Source of the DNA: Candidatus Avimonas narfae
Lineage (GTDB): Bacteria; Bacillota; Clostridia; Oscillospirales; Acutalibacteraceae
DNA: 64,000 bases
Direction of reading: 5' to 3'
NCBI GenBank assembly: GCA_904395335.1
Contig: CAJFNR010000004.1
Coordinates: forward strand, 62,001 to 126,000
Part shown: piece after piece, positions 25,363 to 34,524 of the stretch
Numbering within the stretch: position 1 is the first letter of the stretch
How the letters are laid out: each line of letters begins with the position of its first letter
Notes under the pieces: generated by a model
The model's input: only the letters and a program-made list of their open reading frames with translations
Told to the model about the DNA's origin: nothing
Databases searched by the model: none
Program-made: the position numbers and the translations under genes

Positions 25363-25390
25363 TTGACATCAACGGAATCAGCGGTATAAT
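25363..25390 (+). promoter_or_regulatory. Promoter of the corrinoid operon
   Basis: TTGACA-N16-TATAAT, both hexamers perfect. Transcription would begin near 25397, about 20 bases before the cobalamin riboswitch. Confidence 0.9.
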
Positions 25391-25415
25391 AAAGACAATA
25401 AAACTGAATATTCGC

Positions 25416-25594
25416 AATATGGTGCCTGTAGAAGTACAGGAGAATTGGGAAGCATCGGTGAAAATCCGGCGCAACAGCCATTACTGTGATTGACGAAGAA
25501 AAGAACTTATGTCATTGGAGCAAACGCTCTGAGAAGGTGTTCTTTTTCCGGCCAGACCGGTAAGTCATAAGCCAGGAAACCAGCCATATCTGTC
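25416..25594 (+). promoter_or_regulatory. Cobalamin riboswitch
   Basis: The conserved core is visible: GGTGCC near the 5' end, GGTGAAAATCCGG, the GCAACAGCC...ACTGTGA segment, and the 3' box GCCAGGAAACCAGCC. The closing stem P1 can form from ATATGG (25417-25422) and CCATAT (25584-25589). It lies between a consensus promoter and the operon encoding corrinoid-binding and transport proteins, which fits its ligand (adenosylcobalamin or another cobamide). Confidence 0.92.
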
Positions 25595-25640
25595 AGGATA
25601 AATGCGTACCTTTGGGCAATAGAAAGGTATGGCTGTTTTT
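25581..25640 (+). terminator. Riboswitch expression-platform terminator
   Basis: CAGCCATATCT (25581-25591) pairs with AGGTATGGCTG (25625-25635) with one G-U pair, followed by TTTTT. The 5' arm overlaps the 3' strand of the riboswitch P1 stem, so P1 and the terminator cannot both form. A shorter nested hairpin TACCTTT/AAAGGTA is also possible. Confidence 0.8.
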
Positions 25641-25671
25641 ATGGGCATTTTTGCTTATAATTCCGACTATT

Positions 25672-25706
25672 AAACCGTTTACTCCTGCAGGAGTAGGCGG
25701 TTTTTT
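25672..25706 (+). terminator. Second leader hairpin with T-tract
   Basis: AAACCGTTTACTCCT pairs with AGGAGTAGGCGGTTT and is followed by T residues. It lies between the riboswitch terminator and the first gene, so the leader holds two successive terminators. Confidence 0.8.
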
Positions 25707-25720
25707 GTTTGAAAATTTTT

Positions 25721-25762
25721 AATAGGGGTACCCCTATTTGTTGTATGCTATGCATACAACAA
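25721..25762 (+). promoter_or_regulatory. Two adjacent palindromes upstream of the Cys-rich gene
   Basis: AATAGGGGTACCCCTATT (25721-25738) is a perfect 18-base palindrome. TTGTTGTATGC/GCATACAACAA (25738-25762) is an 11-base inverted repeat with a 3-base loop. Neither has a T-tract. They could be operators for a dimeric regulator or RNA structures. Confidence 0.45.
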
Positions 25763-25789
25763 AACAATCTTATCCGGGGGGTTGCTGCA

Positions 25790-26074
25790 GTGGTAAAGGA
25801 ACAAGCCACGCCATACATCGAGTGGAGAAACAAGGGCTTTTCGTATTTCTGTAATACGCAATGCGAATATTTTCCCTGCCACAACACGGACGAAATGGAC
25901 TTCAACTGCCTGTTCTGCTATTGTCCGCTATACGATTATCCAGACTGCGGCGGCACGTTTGTATATCTGAAAAATGGTACAAAGGATTGTTCCGCCTGCA
26001 CCTTCCCCCACCGTAAAGAGAATTATGGCTTGATGATGGAGCGCTTACAGAAAAAAGGTGAGTATAACCGATGA
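25790..26074 (+). CDS. Cysteine-rich small domain protein
   Basis: 94 residues with about ten cysteines (YFCNTQCEYFPCH, NCLFCYCPLYDYPDCGG, DCSACTFPH), matching the Cys-rich small domain family (Pfam PF04071), a probable metal-binding domain often seen near cobamide genes. The GTG at 25790 follows GGGGGG by 8 bases. It is the first gene after the riboswitch, overlaps the next gene by ATGA, and may act in cobalt or cobamide handling; that is inference. Confidence 0.82.
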   Translation: MVKEQATPYIEWRNKGFSYFCNTQCEYFPCHNTDEMDFNCLFCYCPLYDYPDCGGTFVYLKNGTKDCSACTFPHRKENYGLMMERLQKKGEYNR

Positions 26075-26319
26075 TCCAAAAAGGTGATTATTATATTTTG
26101 GAAAATGATGTTGAAGCGATCCGTCTGCTTACAGAGAAAGCCAACGAACTTAAAAGACTTCCGAAAAAACAGGATTTTGAAGTCGGTCTGGTCGGAGCGA
26201 TTAAGGCACGGCTTGGCCCATGGCCGAGAGCCTTGGAAAAGGCTGGCCTGAAAAAAGTCGGACGAACCTATTCGGCCCGAAAAATGCGACGGCAGGAAAA
26301 GAAAAAGCAATCCAAATAG
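26071..26319 (+). CDS. Small protein with homing-endonuclease-associated repeat
   Basis: 82 residues. The middle (LPKKQDFEVG...LGPWPRALEKAGL) fits the repeat found beside HNH homing endonucleases, where it binds DNA. No nuclease domain is present. The C-terminus is strongly basic. It overlaps the Cys-rich gene by four bases and so is translationally coupled to it. Why a DNA-binding repeat sits in this operon is unclear; it could be a regulator. Confidence 0.7.
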   Translation: MIQKGDYYILENDVEAIRLLTEKANELKRLPKKQDFEVGLVGAIKARLGPWPRALEKAGLKKVGRTYSARKMRRQEKKKQSK

Positions 26320-26384
26320 ATATGACACTATTACGCGAAAGCGTTTGATATAAATAAGTTCTCACAAAAGAAGGAGATTTGAAC

Positions 26385-28286
26385 ATGCAAAAAGCAAAAA
26401 AATTCTCAGCAAAATTGCTGGCAATGCTGCTGAGCATCACCCTGTTGTTTACATTGCTGATTCCGTCAGTATCGGCAGCAAGTGAAAACGACATCACCAT
26501 TCAGACTACCCTGACCGACGGAATGACGCTCAAGGGCAGCAAAAAAACATTTGATGTGATTGCAAGACTGAACGGTGAAAAAATCAGCAGTAGCGTCACC
26601 CTCAATGGTGAAGCTGTAAAAGTGAATTGGGATGATACAACGAAGACCAGCTATACCCTTCAGCTTACCAAAGAAGGCGAAAACATCGTAGAGGTGACTG
26701 CCACTTCCGGTTCCCTGAGCAAAACAATAGCCTATCGGATCCAGTATGAAAAGGCAGAGGCAGGCGATCTCATTGGATATGCCACCTTTACTCTGGAAAC
26801 TCTGACTCTTGGAACTGGCTTTCTGGTGGAACCCATACAGGTGCCGATTTACGAGGGCGAAAACAGCGCACAGTTGTTAGATCGTGTTTTGACCGAGCAG
26901 GGATTTGCGTATGACCATACCGGTAAGCTGGAATCCGGTTTTTATCTGTCTATGATTGCCAATGGCGGCCATCCGGAGTTCAAAAAAGCCGGTTGTCAGA
27001 CCGAAGGCGCAAGATTGGACAAAATTCCGGAAGATCCCAGCGAAAGTATTCCGGCGGCATTGCGGGAAGTTCTGGAAAATGAAGGATACTGGCCAGTGGA
27101 CACTTCTTATTATGTAGAAGACGGAAAAGTATATGCTTTGGGCGAATTTGAATTTACCTATATGTCTGGCTGGATGTACGCTGTTAACGGTGTCTTTCCT
27201 AATGTAGGATTTTCCGATACGTACCCTACTGATGGTGATGTGATTCGCGCACAATTTACCCTTTATGGATATGGAGCGGATATCGGCGGCGGATATGCGA
27301 TGGGCGGCGAAACAACTGATTTTTACCCCATTGCACAGAAAGATCGCCTTCTTACTTTACTTGCCTCTGTAAATTCTTCCCAAGAAAAAGATATCCTTTT
27401 AGCGGATGATTCCGTTAAAAACGCTTTTGATCAAGCAATGTCTGTTGCTGCACAGTTGGATGCTTTTCAAGAGGCTGTAGATTCCTCGGCTGCTGCTCTG
27501 GATGCGGCGGTACAAACCTTCCGTGATAATCAACAAGCAGCGGCCGCAGTGGATGCATTGATCAACGCTATCGGTATTGTAACACTGGACAGCGAAACAG
27601 CAATTACCGAAGCTCGTGCCGCCTATGATTCCCTGACCGCAACCCAGCAGGCGCTCGTTACGAAACTGGAAATGCTGAAAACAGCAGAAAAGGCACTGGC
27701 GGAACTAAAAGCCACAGAAGCCGATAAAGCCAAGGCGGCTGCAGTAGATGCACTGATCAACGCTATCGGTACTGTCACGCTGGACAGCGAAAAAGCGATC
27801 ACCGAAGCGCGCACCGCCTATGATGCCCTGACCGCAACCCAGCAGGCGCTCGTTACGAAGCTGGAAATGCTGACAGCCGCAGAGACAACTTTGGAACAGT
27901 TGAAGACCGATGCCGCAGCGCTTGCACAAGCCAAAGCAGACGCTAAAGCGGAGCTGGAAGATTACAAGGATGCGGCGGATTATCGAGAGGCAGAGGAAGC
28001 CGAACTCGCCAAAGCGATTACAGCCGGAAAAGCGGCAATAGATGCTGCTGCGGATAAAACAGCCGTAGATGCGGCTCTGAAAGCCGCCAAAACAGTGATG
28101 GATGCAATCAAAACAGATGCGCAACTGACCGCTGAAGAAACACAGGGAAATGTAACGCAGCCTGATGATTCCTCCGAAACGACTGACATCCCTCAAACCG
28201 GGGATACAGCTCCGGTCGGCGCTGTCGTCCTGATGCTGCTGACAGCCTCTGCACTGGCGTTGACGCTTCGGCGCAAAAAGGCATAA
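26385..28286 (+). CDS. Wall-anchored transcobalamin-like (DUF4430) protein
   Basis: 633 residues. Signal peptide (~1-27); a beta-rich N-domain; a DUF4430/transcobalamin-like C-type domain at ~155-300 with its hallmark GWMYAVNG near residue 261; two 65-residue alpha-helical repeats (from residue 388) continuing into an Ala/Lys-rich coiled stalk; then a sorting signal IPQTG (602-606), a hydrophobic helix and RRKKA. It should be exported and attached to peptidoglycan by sortase. The DUF4430 fold forms the small corrinoid-contacting domain in human intrinsic factor, so this is likely a surface cobamide-capture protein. ATG 26385 follows AAGGAG by 8 bases. Noticeably more AT-rich than the chromosome on the left. 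Confidence 0.88.
   Translation: MQKAKKFSAKLLAMLLSITLLFTLLIPSVSAASENDITIQTTLTDGMTLKGSKKTFDVIARLNGEKISSSVTLNGEAVKVNWDDTTKTSYTLQLTKEGENIVEVTATSGSLSKTIAYRIQYEKAEAGDLIGYATFTLETLTLGTGFLVEPIQVPIYEGENSAQLLDRVLTEQGFAYDHTGKLESGFYLSMIANGGHPEFKKAGCQTEGARLDKIPEDPSESIPAALREVLENEGYWPVDTSYYVEDGKVYALGEFEFTYMSGWMYAVNGVFPNVGFSDTYPTDGDVIRAQFTLYGYGADIGGGYAMGGETTDFYPIAQKDRLLTLLASVNSSQEKDILLADDSVKNAFDQAMSVAAQLDAFQEAVDSSAAALDAAVQTFRDNQQAAAAVDALINAIGIVTLDSETAITEARAAYDSLTATQQALVTKLEMLKTAEKALAELKATEADKAKAAAVDALINAIGTVTLDSEKAITEARTAYDALTATQQALVTKLEMLTAAETTLEQLKTDAAALAQAKADAKAELEDYKDAADYREAEEAELAKAITAGKAAIDAAADKTAVDAALKAAKTVMDAIKTDAQLTAEETQGNVTQPDDSSETTDIPQTGDTAPVGAVVLMLLTASALALTLRRKKA
27546..27905 (+). repeat. Tandem 195-base repeat within the anchored protein
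   Basis: Two in-frame copies begin at 27546 and 27741. Blocks such as GATCAACGCTATCGGTA and CAACCCAGCAGGCGCTCG are identical in both. Each encodes a 65-residue helical unit (VDALINAIG...TATQQALVTKLEML). Copy number could vary between strains and set the stalk length. Confidence 0.9.
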
Positions 28287-28306
28287 CCAAATATGAGTGG
28301 AGTGGA

Positions 28307-28332
28307 GGGAATGCGGCAAAAGCCGTATTCCC
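28307..28332 (+). terminator. Intercistronic hairpin
   Basis: GGGAATGCGGC-AAAA-GCCGTATTCCC, an 11-bp stem with one G-U pair between the two surface-protein genes. The following sequence has only TTTT after ten bases, so it may be a weak terminator or an mRNA processing/stability element. Confidence 0.6.
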
Positions 28333-28352
28333 TGCTTCCGGTTTTCAGAGAG

Positions 28353-30380
28353 GTGAGAACAATAAAAAAATGGATTAGTATCGGTATGGCTCTGCTGATG
28401 TTCACTGCTGTCTTTTTTCCGGGCTTTACCGTTCAGGCAAAAACGACTGAAATGACCGAAGCTGAAATCATCTCGGTCATTCAGGGGATCATTGATTGGA
28501 AAAAAGCGGATACCGGCGCAACACCAGATGACTTTCTGCTTAACGATATCTTTTTACAGCAGGCGGGTGAAACCGCCGGAGACTGGTTCCCTATCGGCTT
28601 GGGCCGCTATGGCGCCAAAGACGACTACGAGGCGTATTTAGCAGTCATTACCGATAACATTGAAAAGCGCTATCAGACAAAAGCCAAGCTTCACGCTGTT
28701 AAGGCTACAGAATGGCATCGGATTTCCTTAGCGGTATTGGCCGCAGGCGGTGATCCGACCCGGATCGGTAAAGACCCGAATGGACAGCCGATCAACCTCA
28801 TTGCCGATGGCACCTATGATCGCGGAAAGACCGTTTCTCTGGGCAGACAGGGGATCAATGGCTGGATTTGGGGCCTCATCGCGTTAGACAGTAAACGCTA
28901 CGCAATCCCCCAAGACGGTTATTATACTCGGGAGGATATTATTGTGGAAATCCTCCGGCAACAGCTCGAAGACGGAGGTTTTGCTCTTTCCGGAAACACC
29001 TCAGACCCTGATATTACCGCTATGGCAATGCAGGCGCTGGCTCCCTATTACAATGACAGCAAGACATATACTTATGAATTGAAAAAGAGCAAGAAAAGTG
29101 TTACCCGAACGGTTCGTGAAGTCATAGATGACTGCCTGCAGTGGCTCTCCAAGGCGCAGCTTGCAGACGGTGATTTTTCCAGTTGGGGAACACAAAATGT
29201 GGAAAGCACCTGTCAGGTTGTAGTGGCGCTGTGCAGCTTGGGAATTGATCCAGAAAGCGATTCCCGTTTTATCAAAAACGGGAATACTCTGCTGGATGGG
29301 ATACTGAAATATCGGATGAAAGACGGCGGCTTTGTCCATTCCTTTACCTACGATTCCGATAATCCCACTGCTCTGCCCGATCAATCTAATACAATGGCTT
29401 CTGAGCAGGCGCTGTATACCTGGGTAGCAGTTTATCGGCAAAAACGGCATATGCGCAATTTGTATGATTTTCGTGCAGAATGGAGTCAAGCAGAACGGAA
29501 ACAGATCGATAATGTAATCGAGCAGATTCGCCGGCTGCCAGCCAAGCCCTCTAAAGCGCAGGTACAGACTGCCTATGATGCGTATTGCTCCATTCCGGCG
29601 TTGGATCGCTGTTATGTGCCCAATTATTGGACGCTTCATGATGCAATGGTCAATGCTTCGGTTGAGCCGGAGCCCTCCCAACCGGGAACTACAACTCCTA
29701 CGAACCCCTCTGCTCCAACAGGAAAAGGAGGTACCAGCTCCAATCCTACTCACCCCACAGAAAAGCCAAATGAAAACCCCACTACCGCCCCCTCTGATAA
29801 CGATAAAAATCCGGATGTTAATTCGCAACCCGGAACTGACCCGGACGAGGATACTCCTCTGCTTTACTTTTCCAACAGCGACCGAAAAGAAGCAGATTCT
29901 CTTCCGGAAAAGCTCACCACCGAACACTATGTTGTTGTTACCAAGCTGTTGTATAAGCTGGAAAATTCAGAGGATTTTGAGGGGAAGGATACATACCTTC
30001 AAAGGTTGACAGCAGCCAAAAGTCAGATTGAAGCATTACAGGAAGAGATCGATGCCATCAATGCCGAAGTACTGGAAAAGCTGTATCCTTTTGATTCGAT
30101 TTCCCTGGGAGATAAGGCGGTGGTGGACAGTATTGTAGACCGCTATAACGCCCTGAGTGAATATGACCGTGCAAAAATCAACCGCTGGGAGGATGTCATC
30201 AAGACCAAAACCAAGATTGACAATCTGCTGAGGGGTATTATTATCGCCGTTGTGTTGGTCATTGTTGCTGCCGGTGTAACTGTTTTTGTGGTACTGCATA
30301 TCCGCAAACGCCGCCGCAGTAAAAGGCTTGCTATGGAAGAACTGGCGGAGCAATATGCAGACGAGGACGATGAATCCTAA
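28353..30380 (+). CDS. Membrane-anchored alpha/alpha-barrel protein, intrinsic factor N-domain-like
   Basis: About 675 residues. Signal peptide (RTIKKW... to VQA), then an alpha/alpha-barrel of the prenyltransferase/squalene-oxidase type with three QxxDGxF-like repeats (LEDGGFALSG ~206, LADGDFSSWG ~270, MKDGGFVHSF ~322). A Pro/Thr/Ser linker (~437-500) and a helical segment lead to a C-terminal TM helix (~627-650) and RKRRRSKR tail. In transcobalamin and intrinsic factor this barrel and a DUF4430-like domain are fused and clamp B12; here they are separate genes. Start is uncertain: GTG 28353 gives the best signal peptide, ATA 28362 has a better-spaced AGAGAGGTG, and ATGs at 28293/28311 lie in the hairpin region. 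Confidence 0.85.
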   Translation: MRTIKKWISIGMALLMFTAVFFPGFTVQAKTTEMTEAEIISVIQGIIDWKKADTGATPDDFLLNDIFLQQAGETAGDWFPIGLGRYGAKDDYEAYLAVITDNIEKRYQTKAKLHAVKATEWHRISLAVLAAGGDPTRIGKDPNGQPINLIADGTYDRGKTVSLGRQGINGWIWGLIALDSKRYAIPQDGYYTREDIIVEILRQQLEDGGFALSGNTSDPDITAMAMQALAPYYNDSKTYTYELKKSKKSVTRTVREVIDDCLQWLSKAQLADGDFSSWGTQNVESTCQVVVALCSLGIDPESDSRFIKNGNTLLDGILKYRMKDGGFVHSFTYDSDNPTALPDQSNTMASEQALYTWVAVYRQKRHMRNLYDFRAEWSQAERKQIDNVIEQIRRLPAKPSKAQVQTAYDAYCSIPALDRCYVPNYWTLHDAMVNASVEPEPSQPGTTTPTNPSAPTGKGGTSSNPTHPTEKPNENPTTAPSDNDKNPDVNSQPGTDPDEDTPLLYFSNSDRKEADSLPEKLTTEHYVVVTKLLYKLENSEDFEGKDTYLQRLTAAKSQIEALQEEIDAINAEVLEKLYPFDSISLGDKAVVDSIVDRYNALSEYDRAKINRWEDVIKTKTKIDNLLRGIIIAVVLVIVAAGVTVFVVLHIRKRRRSKRLAMEELAEQYADEDDES

Positions 30381-30404
30381 AACCAGGCAAGCGAGGAACC
30401 AAAA

Positions 30405-30971
30405 ATGAAAAAAGATTTATTAGCGATCCTGTTTGTCATTCTGGTGATCGCAGCGGTCATTAACGGAACCCATATCCAGTCGGTGGACGAATATTACCTC
30501 ACCCATATTGACGATATCACACCGGAAAGCGAAACCGTCACGATCAGCGTCCGCTGCGACACCATTCTGGACAACTGGGAAGATCTATGGCCGGAATTGC
30601 AGTCCGATGAGTTCGTCCCGCCGGACGGAGTGATCCTTCCCGAAACGGAATATGTCCTTCGGGAAGGGGACACTGTATTTGACATTCTGGATCGGGCGGT
30701 ACGGTATAACCGTATCCAGATGGAATATCAGGGCGCAGATAAAAACAGCTTCGGCAGCGTGTATATACAGGGCATTCACTATCTGTACGAGTTTTCCTGT
30801 GGCCCGTTGTCCGGCTGGATGTACCGGGTTAACGGGGAGTTTCCCAACTATGGCTGTTCAAAATACGAACTGGAGGACGGAGATGTGATCGAGTGGGTAT
30901 ATACCTGTGATTTAGGGAAGGACGTCGGCTGCGCCTGGATGGGCAATCAGGGAGAGGAGGCGGCACAATGA
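30405..30971 (+). CDS. Membrane-anchored DUF4430 (transcobalamin-like) protein
   Basis: 188 residues. A single N-terminal TM helix (residues ~5-22) tethers a DUF4430 domain (~60-165) with GDTVFDILDRAV and the GWMYRVNG motif near residue 137. Unlike the 26385 gene it has no wall signal and would sit close to the membrane. It overlaps ecfT by four bases, so it is made together with the transporter and is a good candidate for delivering cobamide to it. GCGAGGAA lies before the ATG. Confidence 0.86.
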   Translation: MKKDLLAILFVILVIAAVINGTHIQSVDEYYLTHIDDITPESETVTISVRCDTILDNWEDLWPELQSDEFVPPDGVILPETEYVLREGDTVFDILDRAVRYNRIQMEYQGADKNSFGSVYIQGIHYLYEFSCGPLSGWMYRVNGEFPNYGCSKYELEDGDVIEWVYTCDLGKDVGCAWMGNQGEEAAQ

Positions 30972-31906
30972 ATACCTTTGCTTCCTATCACCCCGCTGTA
31001 TTGATGCTGTATTTTATTGCAGTGCTGCTGATCGCCATGTTTACCCAAAATCCTGTGCTGCTCGCTCTGGCTCTGCTGGGCGGCGTGAGCTTCTGTACTC
31101 TACTGGAACGCCCAAAGGACTTTTTACATAATATGGCCTTTTATATCCCGCTGTTTTTGATGATTGCGATTACTAACCCATTGTTTTCTCACAATGGCGT
31201 GACACCGCTGTTTTTTCTCAATGGAAATCCGGTGACCTTGGAGGCGGTGCTCTACGGTCTGGACATTGCCGCCATGCTGGTGGCTGTCATGTACTGGTTT
31301 AAGTGTTACAACCACATTATGACAAGCGAAAAAATCCTGTTTCTGTTTGGCAAAGTGATTCCCAAGCTTTCACTGCTGTTGTCCACGGCGCTGCGGTTTG
31401 TCCCGCTGTTCAAGGCGCAGATAAAAAAGATTCATCAGGCACAAAAGGCAATGGGGCTGTATGCCTCAAACAGCTATGTGGATAAGCTGCGCAGCGCCGT
31501 GCGGGTTTTCTCCGCCATGCTGACTTGGTCGCTGGAAAATGCAATTGATACGGGAAGCTCCATGAAAGCACGAGGCTATGGACTGAAAGGCCGCAGCCAT
31601 TTTGCTTTGTTCCGTTTCACGGCACGGGACGGTTTGCTGTCCGGAGCAGCAGTTTTTCTGCTGGCTTTGGTTCTGCTGGGAACAGCGTTGAAAGAAACTG
31701 CTTTTTCTTTCTATCCAAGGATTACGGCGCTCTCGGCCTCTCCGATTGCTATTTTGGCTTATCTGGCGTTCGGTCTGCTGGTATTCCTCCCCTTTCTTTT
31801 GGAAATAGTGGAAAATATGCGCTGGAAAGCCCTGCTGTCCAGCGTTCCTAAACATGGAGCGTTGTCCCTTTCGGACGCGACGCCCGGAAAGGATGACAAA
31901 AAATGA
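30968..31906 (+). CDS. ecfT: ECF transporter transmembrane component EcfT
   Basis: 312 residues with several TM helices (residues ~10-45, ~55-75, ~95-118, ~215-240, ~265-285) and a long cytoplasmic coupling region containing SSMKARGYGLKGRSHF, equivalent to the Ala-Arg-Gly coupling motif of EcfT that contacts the ATPases. It links ATP hydrolysis to tilting of the S component. ATGA overlaps join it to genes on both sides. Confidence 0.92.
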   Translation: MNTFASYHPAVLMLYFIAVLLIAMFTQNPVLLALALLGGVSFCTLLERPKDFLHNMAFYIPLFLMIAITNPLFSHNGVTPLFFLNGNPVTLEAVLYGLDIAAMLVAVMYWFKCYNHIMTSEKILFLFGKVIPKLSLLLSTALRFVPLFKAQIKKIHQAQKAMGLYASNSYVDKLRSAVRVFSAMLTWSLENAIDTGSSMKARGYGLKGRSHFALFRFTARDGLLSGAAVFLLALVLLGTALKETAFSFYPRITALSASPIAILAYLAFGLLVFLPFLLEIVENMRWKALLSSVPKHGALSLSDATPGKDDKK

Positions 31907-33606
31907 ACTTGTTAGAAATTGAAAATCTGAGCTTTCAATATCCCGATACCGAGAAAAAGGCGTTGGATAATATTTCTTTTACTGTTAAAATCGGAGAGTT
32001 TGTCGTTATCTGTGGCGAATCCGGCTGCGGGAAAACCACCCTGCTGAAAATGCTCAAACGGGAACTGGCGCCTCATGGAGAAAAAAGTGGCAGCATCCGC
32101 TATCATGATGTGGAGCAGGCTGAACTGGATGACCGAACAGCAGCCTGTGAGATCGGCTATGTGCTGCAAAATCCAGAGAACCAGGTGGTTACCGATAAGG
32201 TGTGGCACGAACTTGCCTTTGGGCTGGAAAGTCTGGGTTTTCCCACCGATGTTATCCGGCGCCGGGTATCGGAAATGGCCAGCTATTTTGGTATCCAGAC
32301 CTGGTTCCGCAAAAATACAAACGAGTTGTCCGGCGGGCAGAAGCAGATGCTGAACCTTGCTTCGATCATGGTCATGCAGCCGAAAATCCTGATTTTGGAC
32401 GAACCGACCTCGCAATTAGACCCTATTGCAGCGGCGGATTTCATCGCCACTTTACAAAAGCTGAACCGGGAACTGGGATTGACAATCCTTCTGGTTGAAC
32501 ACCGTTTAGAAGAAGTTTTCCCCATCGCTGACCGGGTAATGATGATGGAACAGGGAAAAATTCTGCTTTTTGACCGGCCGGAGAAGGTGGGAACCCAACT
32601 GCGGGACATTCGGGCGGATCACCATATGCTGGCGGGCCTGCCCAGCGCCGTGCGGATATTCAACGCGCTGGAAGTAAAGGCACCATGTCCGCTGACCGTT
32701 AAAGAGGGCAGGGATTTCCTGTCCGAGCATTTTGGAAATGTTGTGGATCATCTGGACATCCCGCCTTATACCCACCGGGACGAGGTCGCACTGGAAATGA
32801 AAAACGTCTGGTTCCGGTATGAGCGGGATCTGCCCGATGTGCTGCGGGGGGTAACCTTTTCGGTATATGAGGGAGAAACTTTCTGTATCCTTGGCGGCAA
32901 TGGCACGGGAAAAACCACGACGTTAAGTGTTCTTGCGGGGTTGAACAAGGCTTACCGAGGCAAGACGCTGATCGGCGGCAAAAAAATAGGCGAATACAAG
33001 GGCAGCGCCCTGTACCGTCACAATGTTGCCTTGCTGCCTCAAAATCCCCAAACCGTCTTTCTCAAAAAGACCGTGCGGGAGGATTTTCAGGAAATCTGTA
33101 AGGTGATGGAATATGGAAAGGAAGAACGGCAGACTCTTATAGAAGAAACTGCTGGGAAGCTGGGCATCAGCCATTTGCTGGATAAGCATCCCTATGATTT
33201 AAGCGGCGGTGAACAGCAGAAGGCGGCGCTGGCGAAGATGCTGCTGCTGAAACCGAAAATTCTGTTGCTGGACGAGCTGACCAAGGGAATTGATGCTCAT
33301 TCCAAAGAAAACCTGTCCGGCATCCTCTGTGATTTGAAAGCGGACGGAATTACCATTGTGATCGTTACGCATGATGTGGAATTTGCGGCGGTCAACGCCG
33401 ACCGCTGCGCACTTTTCTTTGATGGGGAGATCACGTCTATCGACACACCAGCCGCCTTTTTCTCAGATAATAACTTCTATACTACAGCGGCCAACCGGAT
33501 CGCCCGGCATCTGTACACCAACGCAGTTACTTGTGAGGATGTGGCGGAACTCTGCCGCTTGAATTCCATAGCGCAGAAGCCGGAAAGCGAGGCCGTTTAT
33601 GGATAA
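31903..33606 (+). CDS. Fused ECF ATPase, two ABC domains (EcfA-EcfA')
   Basis: 567 residues with two complete ABC cassettes. First: Walker A GESGCGKTT (39-47), Q-loop LQNPENQ, signature LSGGQ (~141), Walker B ILILDEPT. Second: Walker A GGNGTGKTT (331-339), LPQNPQ, LSGGE, and Walker B LLLDELT, where the usual Pro is Leu. It powers import by the ECF complex. Many ECF systems have two separate ATPase genes; here they are one chain. It overlaps the S-component gene by eight bases. Confidence 0.94.
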   Translation: MNLLEIENLSFQYPDTEKKALDNISFTVKIGEFVVICGESGCGKTTLLKMLKRELAPHGEKSGSIRYHDVEQAELDDRTAACEIGYVLQNPENQVVTDKVWHELAFGLESLGFPTDVIRRRVSEMASYFGIQTWFRKNTNELSGGQKQMLNLASIMVMQPKILILDEPTSQLDPIAAADFIATLQKLNRELGLTILLVEHRLEEVFPIADRVMMMEQGKILLFDRPEKVGTQLRDIRADHHMLAGLPSAVRIFNALEVKAPCPLTVKEGRDFLSEHFGNVVDHLDIPPYTHRDEVALEMKNVWFRYERDLPDVLRGVTFSVYEGETFCILGGNGTGKTTTLSVLAGLNKAYRGKTLIGGKKIGEYKGSALYRHNVALLPQNPQTVFLKKTVREDFQEICKVMEYGKEERQTLIEETAGKLGISHLLDKHPYDLSGGEQQKAALAKMLLLKPKILLLDELTKGIDAHSKENLSGILCDLKADGITIVIVTHDVEFAAVNADRCALFFDGEITSIDTPAAFFSDNNFYTTAANRIARHLYTNAVTCEDVAELCRLNSIAQKPESEAVYG

Positions 33607-34300
33607 GGCGATACGTTCTCCCCAAAAAATGATAACCGCCTGCCTTTTGTTAATCGGTGTCCCGCTGATCGTAGTCGGCGGTGCAATGCTTTTTCAGGAA
33701 AAGCATTATGCCTGGATTTCCCTGTGTGTGGCAATATTGTCCTGTCTGCCGTTGTTCATCTGTTTTGAACGCAAAGATTCCACAGCCAAGGAACTGATTA
33801 CGCTGGCAGTGTTGGTAGCTGTATCTGCAGCCGGTCGGTTTGCGTTCGCATGGGTACCCGGCTTTAAGCCGGTGACAGCAATTACCGTGATTGCTGCTAT
33901 GTATCTCGGACGAGAGGCTGGCTTTGTTGTGGGCGCTCTGTCGGCAGTGGTTTCCAACTTTTATTTTGGGCAGGGCCCCTGGACGCCTTTCCAGATGTTT
34001 GCCTGGGGCTTTTTGGGCTTTCTGGCCGGTGTGCTGGCGCAGCCGTTGAAACGTCAAAAGATCTGGATGTGTCTGTACGGCGTGCTGGCAGGGGTGTTGT
34101 TTTCTCTGATTATGGATGTGTGGTCCACGCTGTGGGCCGACGGCGGATTTAATCTGTCAAGGTATCTGGCGGCCTGTATTTCCGCCCTTCCCTTTACGAT
34201 TGAGTATGCGGTATCCAATGTTATTTTCCTGTTGCTGCTGACGAAACCTATCGGAGAAAAATTAGAGAGAATCAAACGGAAGTATGGATTATTTGGCTGA
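33599..34300 (+). CDS. ECF transporter S component, probable cobamide-specific
   Basis: 233 residues with about six TM helices. The segments KPVTAITVIAAMYLGREAG and FGQGPWTPFQMFAWG are typical of S components of the cobalamin/queuosine/unknown-vitamin group. It would bind the vitamin and confer specificity on the EcfA-EcfA'-EcfT module. Specificity for cobamides is inferred from the riboswitch and the DUF4430 proteins in the same operon. It ends the operon. Confidence 0.88.
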   Translation: MDKAIRSPQKMITACLLLIGVPLIVVGGAMLFQEKHYAWISLCVAILSCLPLFICFERKDSTAKELITLAVLVAVSAAGRFAFAWVPGFKPVTAITVIAAMYLGREAGFVVGALSAVVSNFYFGQGPWTPFQMFAWGFLGFLAGVLAQPLKRQKIWMCLYGVLAGVLFSLIMDVWSTLWADGGFNLSRYLAACISALPFTIEYAVSNVIFLLLLTKPIGEKLERIKRKYGLFG

Positions 34301-34484: not shown

Positions 34485-34524
34485 AAGCGGGTCGGTCTGC
34501 CTTGTAGCGGATCGGCCCGCTTTT
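34485..34524 (+). terminator. Rho-independent terminator
   Basis: AAGCGGGTCGGTC pairs with GATCGGCCCGCTT through G-C and G-U pairs, followed by TTTTCTG. Confidence 0.75.

Follow-up and report, generated by a model that had tools for sequence, protein, structure and literature searches.

The window, a stretch of 64,000 nucleotides from contig CAJFNR010000004.1 of Candidatus Avimonas narfae (Bacillota; Clostridia; Acutalibacteraceae), carries on its forward strand a gene cluster led by a cobalamin riboswitch, which includes two DUF4430 proteins, one anchored in the wall and the other in the membrane, a membrane-anchored alpha/alpha-barrel protein encoded between them, and an energy-coupling factor (ECF) importer composed of T component, ATPase and S component (T-A-S; Table 1). 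Judged from its sequence, the locus is very probably a B12-riboswitch-controlled operon for corrinoid capture and import, i.e., for scavenging. The first-pass annotation had proposed such a system, built from intrinsic-factor-like parts, and its proposal is supported by the RF00174 match, the affinity of the S component to CbrT, the fold of naturally fused homologs, the score of human transcobalamin against the DUF4430 family, and the riboswitch counts among relatives; motif matching, Rfam, open reading frames (ORFs), and Pfam/NCBIfam searches recovered the promoter, the riboswitch and all named genes where that annotation had placed them.

Table 1. Features of the corrinoid capture-and-import locus, in window coordinates.
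Feature	Position	Strand	Evidence
Sigma-70-type promoter, TTGACA-16-TATAAT	25363..25390	+	12/12 consensus match
Cobalamin riboswitch aptamer, RF00174	25403..25602	+	86.8 bits (gathering score 31.5), E=5e-20; full length, model positions 1-189
Intrinsic terminator hairpin, probably the expression platform of the riboswitch	25672..25703	+	14-bp stem and T run
Small cysteine-rich zf-like protein	25790..26074	+	PF04071, E=4e-22
82-aa protein with homing-endonuclease-associated repeat (HNH_repeat)	26071..26319	+	PF18780, E=2e-10
Secreted, sortase-anchored (IPQTG) DUF4430 / transcobalamin-like beta-grasp protein	26385..28286	+	PF14478, E=1e-6, above cut-off; TIGR01167, 18.0 bits (cut-off 15.9)
Secreted alpha/alpha-barrel (toroid) protein, one C-terminal transmembrane helix	28353..30380	+	AlphaFold2 model, Foldseek, orthology
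DUF4430 protein, one N-terminal transmembrane helix	30405..30971	+	PF14478, E=4e-19, above cut-off
ECF transporter T component, CbiQ-type	30968..31906	+	PF02361, E=3e-11
ECF ATPase, two ABC domains in a single chain	31903..33606	+	PF00005 in two stretches; TIGR04520, E=6e-107, above cut-off
CbrT-type ECF S component (cobalamin)	33599..34300	+	6FNP profile match; PF07155, PF12822
Terminator-like hairpin behind the S gene, operon end	34485..34522	+	16-bp stem, 10 GC pairs

The aptamer is the only Rfam match across the 64 kb of the window, and the riboswitch leader folds much more stably than shuffled sequences (z=-6.3). The genes for the T component, the double ATPase and the S component are complete ORFs, and the last genes of the cluster are indeed joined by short gaps or overlaps, as previously described: 66 nt separate the LPXTG gene from the barrel gene and 24 nt the barrel gene from the DUF4430 gene, followed by overlaps of 4 nt (DUF4430/T), 4 nt (T/ATPase) and 8 nt (ATPase/S). 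The gaps at 26319-26385 and 28286-28353 contain no terminator-like site on the forward strand. The wall protein (LPXTG-type) has a hydrophobic segment at either end. Two genes absent from the first-pass annotation, for the zf-like protein and the HNH_repeat protein, sit between the riboswitch and the LPXTG gene; the zf-like gene probably starts at the GTG codon at 25790, placed by a G-rich, Shine-Dalgarno-like stretch, and no second zf-like gene was present among 40 related loci examined. A promoter-like site (TTGACA-16-TATTAT, 11/12, 30217-30244) lies inside the barrel gene, approximately 160 bp ahead of the DUF4430 gene; it could be an internal promoter for the DUF4430 and T-A-S genes.

The substrate of the importer is indicated by its S component. 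A profile of the window S component and 24 orthologs found the ECF-CbrT S component (6FNP; E=2e-13), with the next structure, 4HZU, at 1.3e-3; 6FNP represents the ECF transporter for vitamin B12 published for Lactobacillus delbrueckii (PMC5997447). The window operon shares with ECF-CbrT the S family, the T and ATPase units and cobalamin as the likely substrate, and adds a dedicated T component in the same operon, a fused double ATPase, surface capture proteins and a riboswitch. The window S component shares 45-71% identity with its counterparts in other operons that combine riboswitch, barrel and DUF4430. The host genome encodes a cobalamin-dependent MetH with both B12-binding domains, and also CobS, whereas CbiC, the single ring-synthesis gene tested, was not found in this genome (95.85% complete); this gene content points to a host that uses corrinoids and probably cannot build the corrin ring itself.

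The barrel and the membrane-anchored DUF4430 protein of the window have counterparts that are joined in a single chain. A genome collection of 84,980 species was scanned with an eight-row alignment of such fused proteins; 427 stretches encode relatives, and the best 80 of these 427 served for locus-level counts. A complete fused gene, encoding the barrel followed by DUF4430, was present in 78 of these 80 loci, including those of cultured strains of Ruminococcus flavefaciens such as FD-1, whose natural fusion is at L155:8001-9869; it occupies the same operon position as the two separate genes of the window, and T-A-S genes adjoin nearly all copies. The description of the window proteins as split parts was borne out by these natural one-chain homologs and by their shared membrane topology. 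In each of the 78 fused proteins, exactly two hydrophobic transmembrane segments lie between the barrel and the DUF4430 domain, with a short intervening loop, Lys/Arg-rich in the examples displayed, so both domains should be extracellular, with a membrane hairpin between them. In the window, the barrel protein ends with one transmembrane helix and a basic tail, and the DUF4430 protein starts with one transmembrane helix; by predicted topology, the pair is the membrane hairpin of the fused proteins, cut at the cytoplasmic loop. By sequence comparison, each half is clearly orthologous to the matching half of the fused proteins, with 41-55% identity between the window DUF4430 protein and the fused DUF4430 domains, and 29-35% identity between the window barrel and 49 fused barrels. 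Well-supported branches in the S-component tree force at least three changes of the fused state, and the nearest neighbor of the window by S component (74% identity) carries the fused form, so fusion or fission occurred repeatedly.

Nearly all fused-type operons (L106-L185) also contain, between the riboswitch and the fused gene and about 1 kb ahead of the latter, a gene for a secreted protein of ~265-330 aa with the motif VYVTISDxxGxLxLAQEKITVxDxDxDGxLTI... and no convincing Pfam family; it is possibly a divergent capture domain. In a further locus (L045:8741-11389), a surface protein with the order DUF4430-barrel shows weak, below-cut-off cohesin and dockerin matches, hinting at a cellulosome-like attachment.

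The association with cobalamin riboswitches extends to related genomes. In a sample of 98 relatives, the riboswitch-bearing genomes gave 72 DUF4430 matches, of which 52 follow a same-strand cobalamin riboswitch at a distance of no more than 8 kb; of the 74 cobalamin riboswitches, 49 are the closest one preceding a DUF4430 gene of this group. With approximately one riboswitch per 2.2 Mb, the chance expectation for this proximity would be well under 1%. For 65 of the best 80 loci, a home-made nucleotide profile placed a riboswitch-like match no farther than 3 kb upstream, and it gave two matches elsewhere; five of the 15 loci without a match end near the operon start. Rfam, applied to eight loci, confirmed six, five of them as RF00174 (34.8 to 94.4 bits) and that of R. 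flavefaciens SAb67 as AdoCbl-II, and two R. flavefaciens loci remained below the gathering score. In a congener (G002), a sub-threshold AdoCbl-II match (E=0.001) lies just upstream of the operon. The first-pass annotation had staked its proposal on homologs not being found mostly in operons devoid of cobalamin riboswitches; most homologous operons have B12 riboswitches. AdoCbl-II (RF01689) replaces the long RF00174 aptamer upstream of the same operon type at L168:6754-6829, L063:4067-4141 and, below threshold, L052:2708-2784. The genome of the window organism itself contains a second cobalamin riboswitch (L006:316-1583 on contig C53; 38.4 bits), which leads genes for a DUF4430 lipoprotein and for an S-like membrane protein that is short, divergent and without Pfam match; the pairing of a DUF4430 protein with a short S-like protein is also seen in L069 and L070.

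Structural comparison relates the surface proteins to animal B12 carriers. In Pfam/NCBIfam searches, the window barrel gave sub-threshold Prenyltrans/SQHop matches only; its AlphaFold2 model is an alpha/alpha barrel (predicted local distance difference test, pLDDT, 84.9; predicted template modeling score, pTM, 0.86). An AlphaFold2 model of a natural fusion (L169; pLDDT 90, pTM 0.69) was then matched by Foldseek to transcobalamin, intrinsic factor and haptocorrin at ranks 1-15 (E 6e-10 to 1.8e-7); cyclases rank lower (E 3e-5), and the later matches include the transcobalamin beta domain on its own (TMt 0.79). In these models, it is the barrel together with DUF4430, and not the barrel alone, that singles out the B12 carriers, and through the orthology of each half the two-domain transcobalamin/intrinsic factor fold would extend to the window proteins. 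Human transcobalamin also scores above the cut-off of the DUF4430 family (PF14478). Profile comparison by hhalign was weak for DUF4430 against transcobalamin (in register, E=0.003) and gave no match between the barrel and three mammalian transcobalamins, so the transcobalamin link rests on Pfam and fold; individual window proteins had no significant sequence match in the PDB, and the DUF4430 family profile yielded chance matches only against PDB sequences.

The barrel is not the only module that accompanies this core. Among 27 related loci having S component, ATPase and DUF4430, 15 encode a barrel without a propeller, nine a pyrroloquinoline quinone (PQQ)-type beta-propeller without a barrel (L038, L042, L050, L051, L061, L065, L066, L067, L068), three neither, and none both; the hypergeometric probability of this exclusivity, calculated by hand and ignoring the relatedness of the loci, is about 5e-5. 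The propeller loci are CbrT-type T-A-S operons, some of their propellers carry sortase-type C-terminal signals, and comparison with solved propellers yields BamB/PQQ types as matches. A beta-propeller, BtuG, is also employed in surface B12 capture by Bacteroides (PMC6977713). This distribution suggests that capture modules are interchangeable on a constant core. A broader scheme can be offered tentatively: a modular, riboswitch-run cobamide relay on the Gram-positive surface, in which a constant core of a transmembrane-anchored, transcobalamin-like beta-grasp protein and a CbrT-type ECF importer is combined in mutually exclusive fashion with either a toroid, split or fused by way of the membrane hairpin, or a PQQ-type propeller, the two-domain clamp of animal B12 carriers is formed by separately anchored proteins, and capture is coupled to delivery to the S component.

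While gene content, riboswitch, CbrT relationship, natural fusions and fold emerge directly from the computational tools, ligand binding, clamp and hand-over are steps that we infer. At low adenosylcobalamin, the riboswitch would let transcription proceed through the terminator, and the surface proteins and the importer would be made; this regulatory logic is established for the riboswitch class and is predicted here for the window leader. The wall-anchored DUF4430 protein and the membrane-anchored barrel/DUF4430 pair would capture cobamide outside the cell, in a plausible relay from wall to membrane. The pair would act as the two domains of a transcobalamin/intrinsic factor chain, gripping the corrinoid from two sides; such a closure of the barrel and the membrane-anchored DUF4430 protein around their ligand is moderately likely. 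The corrinoid would then be passed to the CbrT-type S component, with import powered by the dedicated T component and double ATPase.

Several observations weigh against this interpretation. Taken alone, the window barrel is a generic toroid for which transcobalamin first appears at Foldseek rank 26, outranked by terpene cyclases and glycoside hydrolase family GH88/GH105 enzymes. The superposition of the fusion model on transcobalamin leaves a root-mean-square deviation of 8-9 Å and a TM-score of about 0.5, which together with the pTM of 0.69 indicates that the closed two-domain arrangement is not reproduced. PF01122 (Cobalamin_bind) was matched neither by the window barrel (E<=0.01) nor by seven fused homologs (E<=1), the weak hhalign result for DUF4430 belongs here as well, and some homologous operons, including several T-A-S operons in other families, show no riboswitch. 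One alternative is a corrinoid operon without a clamp, in which the wall and/or membrane DUF4430 proteins bind cobamide by themselves, and the barrel serves as a scaffold or separately binds something else, such as peptidoglycan or carbohydrate. This alternative, which we regard as unlikely, gains from the lone barrel fold being as close to cyclases and GH88/GH105 toroids as to transcobalamin, from the many DUF4430 lipoproteins that occur without a barrel, and from the nine operons in which a propeller stands in for the barrel; yet barrel and DUF4430 form a single chain in many lineages, in the domain order of transcobalamin, and the barrel has many near-invariant polar residues. It is very improbable that the barrel is a surface enzyme, a terpene cyclase or glycoside-hydrolase-like toroid, placed in the operon by coincidence. 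Terpene cyclases are indeed its top PDB sequence-profile matches (E about 1e-10); however, the protein is secreted and anchored, it is fused to DUF4430 beside CbrT-type T-A-S genes in nearly all of the best 80 loci, and the cyclase motif DxDD reads D-x-D-[not D] in 77 of the 78 fused homologs where it was located (its counterpart being D-x-D-[VIATS]) and DPDI in the window. All Pfam/NCBIfam matches of the window barrel are below cut-off as well, and the terpene-cyclase reading was dropped.

Other alternatives concern the cargo. A CbiQO-like importer of cobalt or another metal under B12 riboswitch control would agree with the CbiQ-type T component, the cbiO-like ATPases and the established status of cobalt importers as B12-riboswitch targets (PMC3766115), but it is contradicted by the CbrT match of the S component, by surface domains of B12-carrier type, by the lack of any match to CbiM or CbiN, and by the absence of CbiC from the genome, so that cobalt for ring synthesis would be needless; this reading is highly unlikely and was discarded as well. 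A possibility of somewhat low probability is that the cargo is another B12-linked molecule (cobinamide, alpha-ribazole or other cobamides) and not cobalamin itself: with CobS, the host could finish incomplete corrinoids, and cobinamide is also taken up by B12 transporters of both known families (PMC6593275). Such a cargo would refine, and not contradict, the interpretation of the locus as a corrinoid scavenging operon.

As a gene-context prediction, this type of system is already known. Burroughs et al. (2007; PMC1796856), in the passages available, defined the transcobalamin-like domain in Gram-positive bacteria and described proteins that fuse it to a beta-propeller or, in either order, to an alpha/alpha toroid, as well as operons with CbiO, CbiQ and a second paralog in low-GC Gram-positive hosts with incomplete B12 synthesis; they suggested that surface complexes scavenge B12 and postulated a transfer to animals. 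The window shares with these operons the domains, the gene neighbors, the wall anchors, a second DUF4430/SLBB paralog and a host without full B12 synthesis; it has two secreted or anchored DUF4430 proteins, a toroid neighbor, a CbiO-like ATPase with a CbiQ-like protein, and no CbiC. Those passages contain no riboswitch link, CbrT-type S component, membrane-hairpin fusion or split form, all of which the present analysis adds; new here are the riboswitch statistics, the CbrT identity, the split and fused membrane-hairpin forms, and the mutually exclusive beta-propeller that replaces the barrel. No experimental test of the predicted system was found in the open-access literature, which omits most subscription journals.

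Human transcobalamin, intrinsic factor and haptocorrin (PF01122 with C-terminal PF14478) share with the window proteins the succession of alpha/alpha barrel and beta-grasp domain. In contrast to these single-chain carriers, the window has two proteins, each held by a transmembrane helix and without PF01122 match; ahead of the conserved D-x-D that opens a helix, the window barrel has a stretch devoid of histidine, unlike the His173 loop of human transcobalamin; and the human carriers feed endocytosis, whereas the window proteins would feed an ECF importer. The Bacteroides proteins BtuG, BtuH and BtuJ (PMC8941943, PMC10404256, PMC13398666) likewise supplement a B12 transporter of gut bacteria by capturing the vitamin at the cell surface, but they belong to unrelated families and partner with the outer-membrane protein BtuB, whereas the propeller of the related operons is of PQQ/BamB type.

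The existence of split and fused versions of one clamp permits a direct biochemical test. If the proposed function holds, it would account for B12 capture in a large group of Clostridia from rumen and gut, cultured Ruminococcus flavefaciens among them, and these bacteria would harbor living forms that bear on the proposed Gram-positive origin of animal intrinsic factor and transcobalamin (PMC1796856).

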